NCBI RefSeq assembly: GCF_900105555.1
Contig: NZ_FNTZ01000001.1
Span: forward strand, 1,116,001-1,180,000
Length of the DNA stretch: 64,000 nt
Source: Pseudomonas coleopterorum
Lineage (GTDB): Bacteria > Pseudomonadota > Gammaproteobacteria > Pseudomonadales > Pseudomonadaceae
Direction of reading: 5' to 3'
This document shows, one piece after another, positions 3,877 through 9,028 of the stretch. Below the pieces are notes generated by a model. It made no database searches and was not told the origin of the DNA. It worked only from the letters and a program-made list of their open reading frames with translations. The position numbers were made by a program, and so were the translations under genes. Positions within the stretch are counted from its first letter, which is position 1. Each line of letters begins with the position of its first letter.

Positions 3877-4066
3877 GCACTGACTCCTTTATTGAAGCGC
3901 TGGCAAAGGCTACTCCTCAATTGCGCTGGCGTCATCGTTCCTCTGCACTCGATAGAGAGGATTTGGACAGAGACAGTTGGCGCGCGCCGGCATCGGACGC
4001 CCGGGTATTGAAGATTCCCGGCAACGGGTCGATAAAGCCTCATACCCCCTGCGGCAGGAGAGTCCC

Positions 4067-4441
4067 ATGCGCGCGCTTGTATTGATTGCCCTGGCCATCG
4101 CTGTGTCAGGCTGTACCCGCTGGTCGATGGACCAGCACCTGAACAGCGCCTACCGCGCCTATGACGATGGCAACTGCGAGAAGGTCGTGCTGGAGCTGTC
4201 CCAGGTCGACCGCAAGAGCCGTTCGCGGCCGTACGTGCAACCGGAAGTCTCGATGCTGCGAGGCCAGTGCCTGGAGCGCCAGAAGCTCTACGTCGATGCG
4301 GCACAAACCTACCAGTACATCATCAATCGCTATCCCTCCAGCGAGTACGCCTACCGCGCCCAGGCGCGTCTGCAAACCCTGGATCAGCTTGGCCACGTGC
4401 GTCCCGGTGTACCTGCACAGCCACGTCCGGCGGCATTCTGA
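4067..4441 (+). CDS. TPR-like outer-membrane lipoprotein
   Basis: A 124-residue lipoprotein. It starts at the ATG at 4067 after a clear GCAGGAG ribosome-binding site. The signal peptide ends in the lipobox VSGC (C17). The mature part has helix-turn-helix repeats resembling TPR or BamD-type modules, for example AAQTYQYIINRYPSSEYAYRAQ, described here only by its spacing of small and aromatic residues at about residues 75-98. Such lipoproteins usually act as scaffolds for envelope proteins, but no partner is evident. It lies upstream of and in the same direction as the PilZ gene, with a 93-base gap. No specific function can be assigned. Confidence 0.8.
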   Translation: MRALVLIALAIAVSGCTRWSMDQHLNSAYRAYDDGNCEKVVLELSQVDRKSRSRPYVQPEVSMLRGQCLERQKLYVDAAQTYQYIINRYPSSEYAYRAQARLQTLDQLGHVRPGVPAQPRPAAF

Positions 4442-4534
4442 GGTGCATTTCCTGTACCCTGAAACGATCTGGAAAACGCCTGGGACACCTGAACGGGTGT
4501 ACCTGTGAAACGACAGAGGACGAACGCGACACTT

Positions 4535-4924
4535 ATGCCCGATATCTACAGCAGACCCATCATGTACACCGAGCGTCGGATCGAACGGCACCAGTTGCCG
4601 TACTACCTGAAGGTCTACAACCGCTACACCGGCCGCGCCATGGGCTACATGGGCAACATTTCGGACGTCGGCCTGATGCTGATCAGCGAACTGCCGCTGT
4701 TGGTCGGTCCGGTGTTCGAACTGCAGGTGAAGATTCCCTCGGTCGAGGGCGAGCCCAAGCTGATCGACCTGTCGGCGCATTGCCTGTGGTGCAAGGAAGA
4801 CGCGACCCCTGGTCACTACGATTCAGGCTTCGAATTGCAGGGCCCGGCGCCGACGGAGTTTCTCAAGCTGGTAGACGCGTTGCGCCACTATTTCACGTTC
4901 CATCCTCATGGCACGTCGGCCTGA
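4535..4924 (+). CDS. PilZ-domain cyclic-di-GMP receptor
   Basis: A small cytoplasmic protein of about 129 residues made of a single PilZ domain. Both cyclic-di-GMP-binding motifs are visible: RxxxR within RRIER near the N-terminus, and NxSxxG as NISDVG about 30 residues later. Ligand binding is therefore expected. I chose ATG 4535 (MPDIYSRP); an in-frame GTG at 4505 would add ten residues. The gene converges with the DUF4350::DUF58 gene, with only 15 bases between the stops. A diguanylate cyclase lies about 3 kb upstream, but a functional link is only inference. Its output partner is unknown. Confidence 0.88.
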   Translation: MPDIYSRPIMYTERRIERHQLPYYLKVYNRYTGRAMGYMGNISDVGLMLISELPLLVGPVFELQVKIPSVEGEPKLIDLSAHCLWCKEDATPGHYDSGFELQGPAPTEFLKLVDALRHYFTFHPHGTSA

Positions 4925-4939
4925 CGTAGAACCTGAAAC

Positions 4940-6799
4940 TCAGGCGCGCGGCTGGCGCAGGCTTCGATAGCGCAGCAGCGCTTCGGTGGCGATCTCTCCC
5001 GGCCATGCATCCACGACAGTAACGCCTGCCGCGACCAGCCGATCGTGCAGCCCCTGACGCCAGAGCAGCCGCTGCATCACCCCGCAATAGAGCAGGGCAT
5101 CGGGCCGGGTCTTGACTGGCTGCTGACCCAGGCGCTCGAGGGGCTCGTCGCGCAAGCTGAGCAACAAGACCGGGTGGCGTGCGGCGACTGTGCTCAGCGC
5201 AGCAACCGTGGACGGTTCGTCATCACCTCGAAAGCCGGCCACCATGACTACCAGCGCCCACGCCTGGTCATCGGCGAGAAGGGCTTCCAGGTTTGCGGCT
5301 GAGCTGGCGGTCGGTGAAGTGGGTTGCAGATGCGCAAGTGCCTCGACCATGTGCTGCACATGCTCGGCGCCGCGCTGCGGCATCAGGCTCACCGGCGGCT
5401 CGCAGGAGTACACCTGCAGGCCTACGGCGTACCCGTCAGCCAGCGCTGCTTCGCTCACCTGCCGGCAAGCGTGCGTCGCATGCTTGAGGTCGGTTTCGCG
5501 GTGGCCGGCCCAGGCGCCACAGTCGAGCAGCACCAGCACCGCTTGGCTGGCCTGCCTTGCGGCCGCACTCGAAGGACGGTTGACCCGCGCCCCGGCAGAC
5601 ATCGGTCCCAGGCTGTCCCGCAGGCTTTGCAGTTGCGCCACCGCGCGGGTGAATGCTCGACTGGACAGGCGTCGGCGGTCTGTCGGCATCAACGCGGCGC
5701 CGATACTGCGGGTCGAATGCTGCGACAGTTGCGCCAGTACCTGCCACTTTTCTGCAACGGCGAGCTTGTCGAAGCCGGGATGGTGCAGACACGCGCGTTG
5801 CAGCACATCTCGTCGCAGAGTGCCGAGAAACTCCTGCGGACCCTGCTCGCGCAGGCATTGCCGTCCGTGCTCACGCAGCAGGCGCAGCTCATGTCGGTCC
5901 AGCACGTTCGAGCCCTGGTATGGACGTCGCCGCGTCCTGATCCACCACAGCCCCGACCCGGTGGCCAGCAACAGCACGACCAGCGCCCACGGCACGTACC
6001 GTCCAGGCTGCTCGGCCGCCGGTTCGAACAGCCAGGTCACCTCACTGCCCTGATTCAGGTACCACAGCAGCCAGGCATTGTCGTAGCGCTGGATCTGCTC
6101 GCGCCTCCACAGTTGCGCATCGCTGACCAGGGTGATGAGACCGCTGCCGTAGGCCATCTGCATCAAGTGCGTGGCGCCATTGCTGTTGGCCCATGCCTGA
6201 ACCTTGCCGGTCGGGTCATCCAGATGGCGTTGCGTATCGAAGCTGAGATACGCCGGTGCTTCTTCGTCTTCCAGATAGAGCTTGGTCAGGCTCGGGTACT
6301 CATCGTCCGGAGCAGGGGGAAGCTGCGGCAGCTGCGCGCTCAACTGAACGCGGATCTGCAGGCGATCGAGCAGGGCATCGCCACTGGTGGCGCCGGCCTC
6401 GTCCCACAGGGCGGCGGCCACCGTCAGCAGACGTCCGCCGCGCTGTACCCAGCCCAACAGTCGGTCGACCTGCTGGGTGGACAGCGGGGTTTGCCGGTCC
6501 AGCAGCACCAGGCTGTTTCCCGCTGCAGGCAGGGTGTCCAAGGCGGCCCAGGCGGTAGTCGTGTGGTTGGCCAGCCCCTGAGCCTGCAGAAAGTCGCGGG
6601 CGCTTTGATAGGGCGTATTCCCTGACGGAGGCGAAGCGACGATGCGCGCGATGGATTGCCGGGCGCTCTGGCTATTTAGCGTCTGGTCCAGCAGGCGCGG
6701 GCTGTCGAGATCGGTAGCGCCGGTCAGGCTGACCCACAAGGCCAGCGTGAGGAGCAAGGCCGCAGAACGCCGGATACGCTGCCCCTGGGCTGGCCTCAA
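4940..6799 (-). CDS. DUF4350 protein fused to C-terminal half of a DUF58 (vWA-like) protein
   Basis: This 619-residue frame appears to be two proteins joined. Residues 1 to about 400 are a complete DUF4350-type protein, with an N-terminal hydrophobic segment (about 10-25), a GATase-like periplasmic part, a second membrane helix (about 266-287) and a cytoplasmic tail. From about residue 405 it resembles only the second half of a DUF58 protein, starting at the strand LVLLDCG and ending in RLLWRQGLHDRLV...VVDAWPGEI. The membrane segments and the conserved N-terminal half of DUF58 are missing. In other pseudomonads, as I recall, these families flank a MoxR ATPase gene in the order DUF4350, MoxR, DUF58. 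That gene is absent here. The start is a TTG at 6799 overlapping the pcpS stop. Function unknown; it may be a decayed cluster. Confidence 0.75.
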   Translation of the reverse strand: MRPAQGQRIRRSAALLLTLALWVSLTGATDLDSPRLLDQTLNSQSARQSIARIVASPPSGNTPYQSARDFLQAQGLANHTTTAWAALDTLPAAGNSLVLLDRQTPLSTQQVDRLLGWVQRGGRLLTVAAALWDEAGATSGDALLDRLQIRVQLSAQLPQLPPAPDDEYPSLTKLYLEDEEAPAYLSFDTQRHLDDPTGKVQAWANSNGATHLMQMAYGSGLITLVSDAQLWRREQIQRYDNAWLLWYLNQGSEVTWLFEPAAEQPGRYVPWALVVLLLATGSGLWWIRTRRRPYQGSNVLDRHELRLLREHGRQCLREQGPQEFLGTLRRDVLQRACLHHPGFDKLAVAEKWQVLAQLSQHSTRSIGAALMPTDRRRLSSRAFTRAVAQLQSLRDSLGPMSAGARVNRPSSAAARQASQAVLVLLDCGAWAGHRETDLKHATHACRQVSEAALADGYAVGLQVYSCEPPVSLMPQRGAEHVQHMVEALAHLQPTSPTASSAANLEALLADDQAWALVVMVAGFRGDDEPSTVAALSTVAARHPVLLLSLRDEPLERLGQQPVKTRPDALLYCGVMQRLLWRQGLHDRLVAAGVTVVDAWPGEIATEALLRYRSLRQPRA

Positions 6800-7503
6800 C
6801 GGACCGCTACCAGGCTCAACAGGTGTCCGTCGAACCAGGCAAACTGCCCGTCGATTTCGAATCCGTAGCCAAACTCTGGTGACAGATCGGTCAACAGGCG
6901 CAGCCGCGCATGCCCTTCGGCCGACCACTGCAGCACTTCGGCATGCTCGAAATAGAAACGCTGCCCGACCAACGGGTACAACGCTTTGAACAGGCTTTCC
7001 TTGAGCGAGAAGGTCAGGGTGACCAGCGTATCCACCTGCGCCGGATCCATCCGCGTCATTTCGGCCGGGGTGAGGATTTCGGCGCACAGCCGTTCGGCGC
7101 GCGCCACTGGCAGCAGACTTTCGATATCCAGACCCAGCCCCTGGCAGTGATCCCGATGGGCGACCACGGCCGCGGCCCGACCACTGCCGTGGGTGATCGA
7201 CCCGACGATTTGCTCAGGCCAGACCGGGGCGCGGTCGGCGCCGATGGCCGGCACCTGCGCTTCGCCGGTCAACGCCAGCAGGGCGCCACGTGCGCAGACG
7301 CGCCCCGCCAGGTACTCGGCCTGACGCTTGGCCACCGAACGCTGAATCGACGCAGGCGGGGCAATGCCGCACTGCGCGAAGTCTTCGGCGGTCAGTGCGC
7401 CGTGGTCGAAACGGCTGCTGAACAAGTGTGCGCCGGGCACGTCCTCGGGCAAGGGCCAGTGTTGACGCAGATCGCTCAGGCAAGCGGGGAGGGCTGTATT
7501 CAT
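6796..7503 (-). CDS. pcpS: 4'-phosphopantetheinyl transferase (EntD/PcpS-type)
   Basis: Transfers the 4'-phosphopantetheine arm of coenzyme A to carrier proteins of fatty-acid, siderophore and other nonribosomal or polyketide synthases. The 235-residue length fits the PcpS/EntD group. The metal- and CoA-binding motifs are visible: GSITH at 101-105, GLGLDIE with D126, and FSLKES with K173 at 165-173. I chose ATG 7503 because the upstream in-frame stretch has no family resemblance. The gene sits between sprT and the DUF4350::DUF58 gene, and its TGA overlaps the TTG start of the latter. This neighbourhood is not the one I recall for pcpS in P. aeruginosa. Confidence 0.9.
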   Translation of the reverse strand: MNTALPACLSDLRQHWPLPEDVPGAHLFSSRFDHGALTAEDFAQCGIAPPASIQRSVAKRQAEYLAGRVCARGALLALTGEAQVPAIGADRAPVWPEQIVGSITHGSGRAAAVVAHRDHCQGLGLDIESLLPVARAERLCAEILTPAEMTRMDPAQVDTLVTLTFSLKESLFKALYPLVGQRFYFEHAEVLQWSAEGHARLRLLTDLSPEFGYGFEIDGQFAWFDGHLLSLVAVR

Positions 7504-7544
7504 GTGCGCATTCTGCCCAGCCTGGTCGTGCAAGGGAATGGCGA

Positions 7545-8039
7545 TCATTGCATGCGCGTTTCGCCGCTGAACACCAGGGTCTGGCGGCAGCGCCGGCACA
7601 GGTAGCGACGACCTCTGCCGACCAGGCCATGGCGTTGCGCCGAAAAGGCGAACTCGCTCTCGGGGCAGGGGCATTTGTACAGGTAGCGCATGACCTGGCG
7701 ACGCTTCACGGCGTAGCTGTGGCAGCGGTGCGGGGTCAGTTCATAGACACCGCGCATGATCAGTTGCCATTCCTCGCCGTGAGGCGCGATGCGATCGCCG
7801 AATAGCTGGTGCGCCACCAGGTGCGCGACCTCGTGGGGCACGGTCTGCTTGAGGAAGTCTTCGGCATTCTCGCGGTAGAGCTGCGGATTGAAGCGCAGCA
7901 GGTTTTCGTGCAAGTGCGCCACACCGGCCTTCTGCCCGCGCAGCTGGGTGCTGACCACCGGGCGCCGGAAAGGGCGCTTGAAAAACAGCTCGGCCTGGCG
8001 AAAGCAGGCTTCGACGCGTTGATTGAGTTGCTCGGACAT
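7545..8039 (-). CDS. sprT: SprT-family zinc metalloprotease-like protein
   Basis: A 164-residue SprT-family protein. The zincin motif HEVAH is at residues 69-73, followed by a conserved H at about 87. A C-terminal zinc ribbon has C123, C125, C148 and C151. The ATG at 8039 (MSEQLNQRVEACF) gives the usual family length; the in-frame extension upstream runs into the ttcA promoter region. The family is related to SPRTN proteases, but the bacterial protein's substrate is not known. It is divergent from ttcA and is probably the first gene of a unit with pcpS, 41 bases downstream. Confidence 0.9.
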   Translation of the reverse strand: MSEQLNQRVEACFRQAELFFKRPFRRPVVSTQLRGQKAGVAHLHENLLRFNPQLYRENAEDFLKQTVPHEVAHLVAHQLFGDRIAPHGEEWQLIMRGVYELTPHRCHSYAVKRRQVMRYLYKCPCPESEFAFSAQRHGLVGRGRRYLCRRCRQTLVFSGETRMQ

Positions 8040-8203
8040 TCTTCGACACACTCCAGATGCAGCGATTATGCCGCAACCTCCGAGCGGTGCCGAGCCACCC
8101 GTCGCTCCCGCGCGCCCCTCATGCTTCGCAGACGGTACACGGCACGCATCAAAGTGCGTAAAATGCTCCGCTTTTGTCACACACCTCGCGGGATCCTGTC
8201 GCC

Positions 8204-9028
8204 ATGGGCACTCTTTCAGTCAACCAGAACAAGCTGCAGAAACGCCTTCGTCGGCTGGCCGGTGAAGCCGTCGCCGACTACAACATGATCGAGAACGGCG
8301 ACAAGGTCATGGTCTGCCTCTCGGGCGGCAAGGACAGCTACACCCTGCTCGATGTGCTGCTGCACCTGCAGAAGGTCGCGCCCATCCAGTTCAGCATCGT
8401 GGCGGTGAACATGGACCAGAAGCAGCCGGGCTTCCCCGAGCATGTGCTGCCGGCCTACCTGGAACAGCTGGGCGTCGAATACCACATCGTCGAGAAAGAC
8501 ACCTATTCGGTGGTCAAGGAGCTGATCCCGGAAGGCAAGACCACCTGCTCGCTGTGCTCGCGCCTGCGCCGCGGCACGCTGTACACCTTCGCCGACCAGA
8601 TCGGCGCGACCAAGATGGCCCTGGGTCACCATCGCGACGATATCGTCGAGACATTCTTCCTCAACATGTTCTTCAACGGCTCGCTCAAGGCCATGCCACC
8701 CAAGCTGCGCGCCGACGACGGGCGCAATGTGGTCATTCGGCCGCTGGCCTACTGCCATGAGAAGGACATCCAGGCGTACTCGGACTTCAAAGGCTTTCCG
8801 ATCATCCCGTGCAACCTGTGCGGCTCCCAGGAGAACCTGCAGCGCCAGGTGGTCAAGGACATGCTGCTGGACTGGGAGCGCAAGACGCCCGGCCGCACCG
8901 ACAGCATCTTCCGCAGCCTGCAGAACGTGATGCCGTCGCAGCTGGCCGACCGCGACCTGTTCGATTTTCACAACCTGCGCATCGACGAGAACGCCCCGGT
9001 GCGGATCGCCAATGTGGTGAACCTGTAA
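8204..9028 (+). CDS. ttcA: tRNA 2-thiocytidine(32) synthetase
   Basis: Thiolates cytidine 32 in the anticodon loop of certain tRNAs using ATP and an iron-sulfur cluster. The 274-residue protein shows the ATP PP-loop SGGKDS at 40-45 and two CxxC pairs, C115/C118 (CSLC) and C203/C206 (CNLC), which bind the cluster. The start ATG 8204 gives [15 protein letters not shown], the family's typical N-terminus. It is divergent from sprT and is followed by a REP doublet rather than another gene on the same strand. Confidence 0.96.

Follow-up and report, generated by a model that had tools for sequence, protein, structure and literature searches.

The available part of PMC5898192 describes an archaeal DUF4350 protein with an extracellular flavodoxin-like domain related to GldG, and for vWA domains the usual metal-site pattern is DxSxS-T-D according to the accessible part of PMC9976466. 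Fusions born by deletion are the subject of a 2026 preprint (PMC12803068), in the available portion of which narX of the Mycobacterium tuberculosis complex is the three-gene example, a clear novel beneficial function is identified in none of the cases, and the dN/dS values of most candidates are consistent with diversifying selection. At issue is whether chance deletions can ever give rise to useful genes. Among the open-licence PubMed Central papers listed, none was found on the Pseudomonas fusion described below or on the corresponding cluster.

The unfused arrangement was examined in relatives. In G051, the unfused genome with the pyk gene closest to that of the locus analysed here (93%, among genomes searched with pyk), the minus strand carries RDD-SpoIIM-DUF4129-DUF4350-MoxR-DUF58, named by Pfam, between a gene which we take to be sbcB and a convergent PilZ gene, with a small gene and then pyk following downstream of PilZ. 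The cluster order beside pyk is identical in G023, G052 and G020, and PilZ adjoins DUF58 in the unfused relatives inspected beside pyk. The initial annotation had expected, for related genomes, a MoxR gene between DUF4350 and DUF58, with RDD, SpoIIM-like and DUF4129 genes on the flanks. The full six-gene layout was checked in the 20 regions fetched for synteny: two carry the fusion (G043, G293), four the full cluster beside pyk, and in nine sbcB lies directly beside PilZ with no cluster (G015, G007, G025, G024, G065, G003, G057, G009, G045). Since these nine inspected relatives have lost all of it, the cluster is dispensable in Pseudomonas. The nine do not form one clade on the pyk tree. In G037, DUF58 scraps alone are left between sbcB and PilZ, corresponding to residues 198–226 and 385–440 (L096 9101–9385), a decayed copy of the same cluster and a natural contrast to an in-frame fusion. 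G041 and G069 have the pyk side, with neither cluster nor sbcB within the fetched stretch; the G064 region was taken at its cluster, which is intact and away from pyk, and the last of the 20 comes from another part of G015, where DUF58 is matched weakly.

The DNA analysed here, termed the window, is a stretch of 64,000 nucleotides from Pseudomonas coleopterorum. On its minus strand, an open frame of 619 codons with a TTG start and a stop at 4940–4942 occupies 4940–6799, for which the initial coordinates and length proved exact. Pfam places DUF4350 (PF14258) at residues 62–248 (E 1.4e-21, 78 bits, curated cut-off 30.4) and DUF58 (PF01882) at residues 415–557 (E 7.2e-11, 42.1 bits, curated cut-off 23.4), the latter covering profile positions 32–176 of 216 only. 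With cluster-specific profiles, built from 32–33 unfused homologues per gene, residues 54–397 align to positions 49–398 of 398 of DUF4350 (i-E 4.9e-113) and residues 416–614 to positions 238–439 of 445 of DUF58 (i-E 5.7e-41), 12 sequences being searched each time. The frame had been described as a complete DUF4350 protein followed by the second half of a DUF58 protein; both domains are present and DUF4350 runs to its last position, but completeness fails at the N-terminus, where the first 58 residues or so align with an internal part of the DUF4129 protein instead. We regard 4940–6799 as a confirmed, real fusion of DUF4350 with the vWA half of DUF58.

All parts of the frame lie on the minus strand. 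Residues 1–58 (6626–6799) are assigned by profile match to the membrane half of a DUF4129 protein and comprise a hydrophobic helix at about 13–31 and the beginning of the loop after it. Residues 59–397 (5609–6625; PF14258 and own profile) hold the DUF4350 domain, a membrane helix predicted by hydropathy at residues 269–287 (5939–5995) and a cytoplasmic tail, and reach the final residue of the unfused protein. A junction linker (residues 398–415, 5555–5608) leads into residues 416–619 (4943–5554; PF01882 and own profile), the vWA half of DUF58 without the two membrane helices and the remainder of the N-terminal half; a complete DUF58 protein would have an N-terminal membrane hairpin and a GDSLRQIDWKATAR-type motif, and the match starts at position 238 of 445. 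Directly upstream is a 4'-phosphopantetheinyl transferase gene (6796–7674, minus strand, PF17837/PF01648), and the DUF58 end converges, as initially noted, on a PilZ-domain gene (4505–4924, plus strand, PF07238). Between PilZ and pyk lies a small gene (3977–4441) with a weak BamD-like match (TIGR03302, below cut-off), which also occurs in the inspected pyk regions and is far more variable than pyk.

The fused frame is the single match in its own genome, and among the 880 window frames of at least 40 residues it is the sole match of the DUF4350 and DUF58 profiles. No NCBIfam family for the fused protein and no credible match among solved structures were found. In the same 880 frames the RDD and SpoIIM profiles had no match, and a MoxR profile trimmed to the true gene start gave nothing at the inclusion threshold in the window. 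A MoxR match at 5439–5870, in another frame over the fused gene (20.9 bits), was obtained with the untrimmed profile and rejected, as it disappeared on trimming; it corresponds to profile positions 38–121, mostly or wholly before the true MoxR start, which about 105 of the 450 untrimmed positions precede, as judged by length difference. For the window, these searches agree with the reported absence of MoxR, RDD and SpoIIM; that of DUF4129 has to be amended, a piece of it being contained in the fusion.

This piece was examined by shuffling. The first 90 residues of the window protein match positions 281–329 of the DUF4129 profile at 24.7 bits, the best of 2000 shuffles reaching 10.3; the test was run on two fusions (the window's own and P0008), and both scored well above their shuffles. 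All 12 fusions, namely the window's own, nine database proteins and two genomic copies, with two nearly identical pairs among them, match within positions 252–342 (18.2–27.4 bits), and the best of 33 unfused DUF4350 N-termini gave 3.6 bits. Among the 880 window frames, the fused frame is the only match of this profile (E 7.9e-6). Because of these matches, the N-terminal helix and the next 30 residues are attributed to DUF4129, replacing the first DUF4350 helix. The DUF4129 domain proper, PF13559 at 429–500 of the unfused protein, is absent, so that the fusion is not a DUF4129 protein by PF13559 and matches only around profile positions 252–342. Judged by the profile matches, the fusion is made of joined pieces of three cluster genes (DUF4129, DUF4350 and DUF58).

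At the second junction, the frame runs on from the last residues of unfused DUF4350 through about 18 linker residues into the vWA half, and in other fusions the linker is up to 10 residues longer. The stop of 29 of the 33 unfused DUF4350 genes is a TGA preceded by A (ATGA); in the unfused cluster of G051, where this was verified, the ATGA is at the same time the MoxR start (L081 4915–4918), an overlap which suggests translational coupling. The window linker reads LGPMS and resembles a possible former MoxR start. Derivation of the linker from the old MoxR start is suggestive at most, as a MoxR profile trimmed to the true start does not match the linker. Derivation from the DUF58 motif IDWKATAR, with which MAFFT aligns the linker, is not claimed either: the observed score was reached by 12 and 14 of 1000 shuffles for one sequence and its near-duplicate, by 48–64 of 1000 for five other fusions and by 327 or more for another five, which is unconvincing.

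Whether a MoxR/DUF58 copy exists elsewhere in the genome had been raised initially. Compared with the cluster MoxR of G051, that of the split genome G023 is 83% identical and that of G052 86%; the best MoxR in the fused genomes (G000, the window's own, G043 and G293) is 46% identical to it, with none higher. In G000, this gene sits at about 1.405 Mb with two DUF58-profile matches as neighbours, and another MoxR (44% identical to cluster MoxR), at 3.157 Mb, also adjoins DUF58-profile matches; the search thus returned MoxR/DUF58 matches, but the cluster MoxR itself was not found. The second MoxR match spans nearly the whole length in G000 and G293; in G043 it is in two pieces (C11:403197–403755), the middle of the protein missing. 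A SpoIIM search gave one match in each of three split genomes; the three fused genomes had none, nor had the three genomes tested that lack the cluster. Cluster MoxR and SpoIIM were thus not found in any of the three fused genomes, and an adjacent dedicated MoxR, as in a MoxR-vWA system, is absent from the window.

The neighbourhood of the fusion is rearranged relative to the other pseudomonads inspected. In G000, sbcB is about 115 kb from the fusion (G000:C1:1004396–1005856), and the present neighbours of the fusion are the genes for the phosphopantetheinyl transferase, an SprT-like protein and ttcA (window 6796–9028); in G051, G015 and G052, ttcA lies about 258–275 kb from pyk. The TGA of the transferase gene overlaps the TTG start of the fusion (TTGA, 6796–6799), and as this overlap is kept in G043 and G293 too, i.e. 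in all three genomes, expression of the fusion may now depend on the transferase gene.

The genus search covered 398 genomes, of which 317 gave matches at E 1e-20 or better and 81 gave none. A full-length fusion was seen in three of the 398, G000, G043 (P. baltica) and G293 (Pseudomonas sp. 286), which rejects the possibility that the layout is standard in pseudomonads; in most other genomes DUF4350 and DUF58 are two separate matches, the layouts resting on the matches listed, to about E 3e-79. The other DUF4350 matches listed end at about residues 397–429, nearly all of them by read-through of the stop. Six further genomes have a single match: G152, among the matches listed, is unfused, and in G124, G190, G205, G231 and G387 the best match has E 7e-71 or weaker, which would leave room for a very divergent fusion. 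At class level, 40 of 369 genomes had a match at E 1e-12, which was full-length only in the window's own genome. A protein database gave 621 matches, the best 120 of which include at least nine fused protein clusters (P0002–P0010). The fused relatives share 69–95% identity, and the nine database proteins all have both Pfam domains above cut-off, the DUF58 score lying within half a bit of it in P0004 and P0010 (two of the ten fused proteins scanned). A recent deletion, one of the two readings offered initially, or an event confined to a single genome is contradicted by the presence of the same fusion in three species-level genomes, at dS 0.35–0.69, and in nine protein clusters.

In the DUF4350 tree, all fused sequences form one clade (local support 1.00) with P0012 as sister (0.999), and in the pyk tree the fused genomes stand together (1.00) beside G051 (0.918). 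P0012, of 405 residues, opens with a DUF4129 piece scoring 11.7 bits, against 4.7 for the best of 2000 shuffles, and its end is exactly that of unfused DUF4350 (...LQTLRNAL); it has the first junction, DUF4129/DUF4350, and not the second, to DUF58. This protein cluster, the only one of its kind and with the weakest DUF4129 match of the set, suggests a candidate half-way stage of a stepwise collapse. A DUF58 gene partner for P0012 was found neither among 10 proteins found nor among the best 120 of 5832 matches, and nothing was found for P0012 in viral contigs. In a search for P0012-like genes in the 398 genomes of the genus, eight matched at E 1e-95, the three fused genomes being best, and no second P0012 was recognised. 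Tree position and synteny together indicate that the ancestral state is split: the fragments are separate in relatives and joined in frame here. A single origin is indicated, probably in steps.

Selection was assessed as dN/dS from Nei-Gojobori counts between the three genomic copies, a simple method applied to pairs that are not independent, which gave 0.301, 0.280 and 0.241 for the whole frame (dS 0.35–0.69). For the same three pairs, the DUF4350 part has values of 0.258, 0.215 and 0.189 and the DUF58 part of 0.361, 0.325 and 0.263. The 19-codon linker gave 0.399, 0.344 and 0.347, and the first 58 codons gave 0.247, 0.542 (the pair own/G293) and 0.317. Unfused DUF4350 has a median of 0.157 (range 0.069–0.490; 258 pairs) and the unfused DUF58 half one of 0.116 (0.041–0.312; 214 pairs), both at dS 0.3–0.9; pN/pS is 0.011–0.290 for five flanking genes against 0.285–0.394 for the fusion. 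Because dN/dS is below 1 and yet above that of unfused and flanking genes, constraint on the fusion is present but relaxed; the dN/dS check proposed initially thus came out as purifying, and weaker than in either comparison. In a crude neutral simulation, the share of 300 runs still free of stops was 6.3% with 0.05 substitutions per site, 1.3% with 0.1 and zero (0/300) with 0.3. The frame is open in all three genomic copies, to which this comparison is limited because database proteins are open frames by definition. On these counts, the fusion is under purifying selection in one Pseudomonas clade, represented by three genomes. As regards the other initial reading, a new functional fusion protein, its retention is supported (dN/dS 0.24–0.30, open in three copies), whereas its function we only infer.

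Conservation is distributed unevenly along the protein. In DUF4350 (positions 47–386), 82 of 133 near-invariant residues are identical in 12/12 fusions, and 43 of 48 in its core (121–235). For the DUF58 half the count is 28 of 105, or 45 of 105 in the window protein itself. Of 20 near-invariant residues at DUF58 positions 236–262, where unfused proteins read LDCGR[S/R]M, a single one is kept in 12/12, C and G being kept in 11/12; at 341–354 (TNLRDED, the second motif loop) none of seven is kept in all. The corresponding numbers are 7/22 at 263–290, 4/23 at 291–340, 11/20 at 355–400 and 5/13 at 401–444. By analogy with the DxSxS-T-D pattern, 236–262 and 341–354 would form the putative metal-binding site region. 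The first motif (DxSxS) is not present in the fusions, 10/12 of which read [D/E]CGAW; even the seven unfused DUF58 proteins shown depart from it, with DCGR[S/R]M. As few near-invariant residues are left around the expected metal site and in the second loop, the vWA part may be drifting. The term vWA-like module, used initially, holds for the DUF58 vWA half and needs qualifying because few invariant residues remain at that site. At several of the changed positions, 12/12 fusions share the same new residue (R250 to A, N346 to G, E375 to D), the pattern expected if function or constraint has shifted.

By hydropathy, the N-terminal helix at about 13–31 passes the threshold in 9/12 fusions (not in P0005, P0009 and P0010) and may act either as a membrane anchor or as a signal peptide that is cleaved off; helix 269–287 passes in 12/12. 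A stretch inside the vWA part passes in several fusions, the window's own included, and is probably a buried strand. The DUF4350 core would accordingly be predicted as periplasmic, and the tail and vWA part as cytoplasmic. Since the unfused proteins are expected to have these same sides, hydropathy agrees with no domain having changed sides through the fusion.

Taken as a whole, a fusion born by deletion and then retained, likely a single-chain, ATPase-free membrane protein, is the best explanation and in our judgement a probable one. The ancestral cluster RDD-SpoIIM-DUF4129-DUF4350-MoxR-DUF58, between sbcB and the PilZ gene, would have been disrupted; part of the DUF4129 gene would have been joined in frame to DUF4350 and have supplied a new N-terminal membrane or signal helix, and a second in-frame joining would have linked DUF4350 to the vWA half of DUF58, MoxR and the DUF58 membrane hairpin being lost. 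That deletions were the cause is our inference, and so is the order of steps, which a single intermediate suggests. The fused product has been kept by purifying selection in one Pseudomonas clade, as seen in three genomes. Its periplasmic DUF4350 head may bind a partner or ligand, one membrane helix bearing the cytoplasmic tail and the vWA-derived domain, which may offer a docking surface in its C-terminal half, the better conserved one, and not act by a metal-ion adhesion site. As there is no dedicated ATPase and the adhesion site is eroded, we favour a passive scaffold or adaptor in the membrane, born by deletion and working without an ATPase, most likely with its DUF4350 head in the periplasm and its vWA-derived tail in the cytoplasm. 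That stepwise deletions produced a new single-chain transmembrane protein with an ATPase-independent function of its own, kept through speciation, is held more tentatively, at somewhat under even chances.

Conceivably, though we think it rather unlikely, only the DUF4350 half is functional and the DUF58 part is a slowly decaying passenger needing mere solubility: DUF4350 keeps by far the larger share of its near-invariant residues in 12/12 fusions (82/133, core 43/48, against 28/105), and dN/dS of the DUF58 part is the higher in 3/3 pairs and near or above the top of the unfused range. Against a mere passenger, however, dN/dS of that part is still 0.26–0.36, and near-invariant residues are kept at 355–400 (11/20) and 401–444 (5/13), with some positions fixed to a new residue. 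Less credible again is a fused protein that still works with a MoxR ATPase, now a remaining paralogue. Each of nine genomes compared has a MoxR 45–47% identical to cluster MoxR (46% in the three fused), and according to the available part of PMC9976466 altered adhesion-site residues in NorQ-NorD still allow ATPase binding, with binding by a vWA 'finger' modelled; but the paralogue in G000 already adjoins two DUF58-profile matches, and the vWA part has lost conservation over much of its length.

That the frame is a pseudogene, open by chance and slowly accumulating damage, would agree with the relaxed constraint, with the cluster being gone in nine inspected relatives and with the scraps in G037, but is very improbable in view of a dN/dS of 0.24–0.30 at dS 0.35–0.69 and of an open frame and start overlap in 3/3 genomic copies. 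An assembly or frame artefact was rejected with near certainty, since the layout recurs across three genomes and among proteins of other origin. The deletion-born, retained fusion is a rare candidate for a useful new gene made by deletions, and if this is true, a deletion-born gene has moved from chance product to fixed, useful gene. A single, easily grown genus shows the source genes, a candidate half-way stage, purifying selection and natural controls, the latter being relatives without the whole cluster and one with scraps. The fusion also indicates which parts of DUF4350 and DUF58 are most constrained after loss of the ATPase, namely the DUF4350 core and, within the vWA part, the C-terminal half more than the first.

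Compared with known systems, the fusion is closest to the unfused Pseudomonas cluster, with which it shares the place on the PilZ/pyk side, homologous domains and a compatible predicted topology; the cluster differs in its six separate genes including MoxR, in a DUF58 protein with membrane hairpin and N-terminal half, and in stronger constraint. With the archaeal arCOG01314 (DUF4350), COG0714/MoxR and vWA system, as far as described in the available part of PMC5898192, it shares by homology a membrane-anchored, extracellular flavodoxin-like DUF4350. The archaeal protein is encoded with a MoxR-type ATPase and a vWA protein, together predicted to form a complex; there the genes are separate, the vWA protein is described as secreted and the ATPase is present, whereas the vWA-derived part of the fusion is predicted to be cytoplasmic and has no dedicated ATPase. 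As in NorQ/NorD and RavA/ViaA, the vWA part stems from a protein encoded beside a MoxR gene, but the fusion locus is without a partner ATPase and the putative adhesion-site region is eroded. Like the fusions in the available part of PMC12803068, the present one is made of fragments of neighbouring genes joined in frame, most likely by deletion, and like narX it has three source genes; it differs from most candidates there in that its dN/dS across species is clearly below 1, and there is one candidate intermediate. As far as that portion of the preprint allows the comparison, the present case is of the same kind, with stronger signs of retention.
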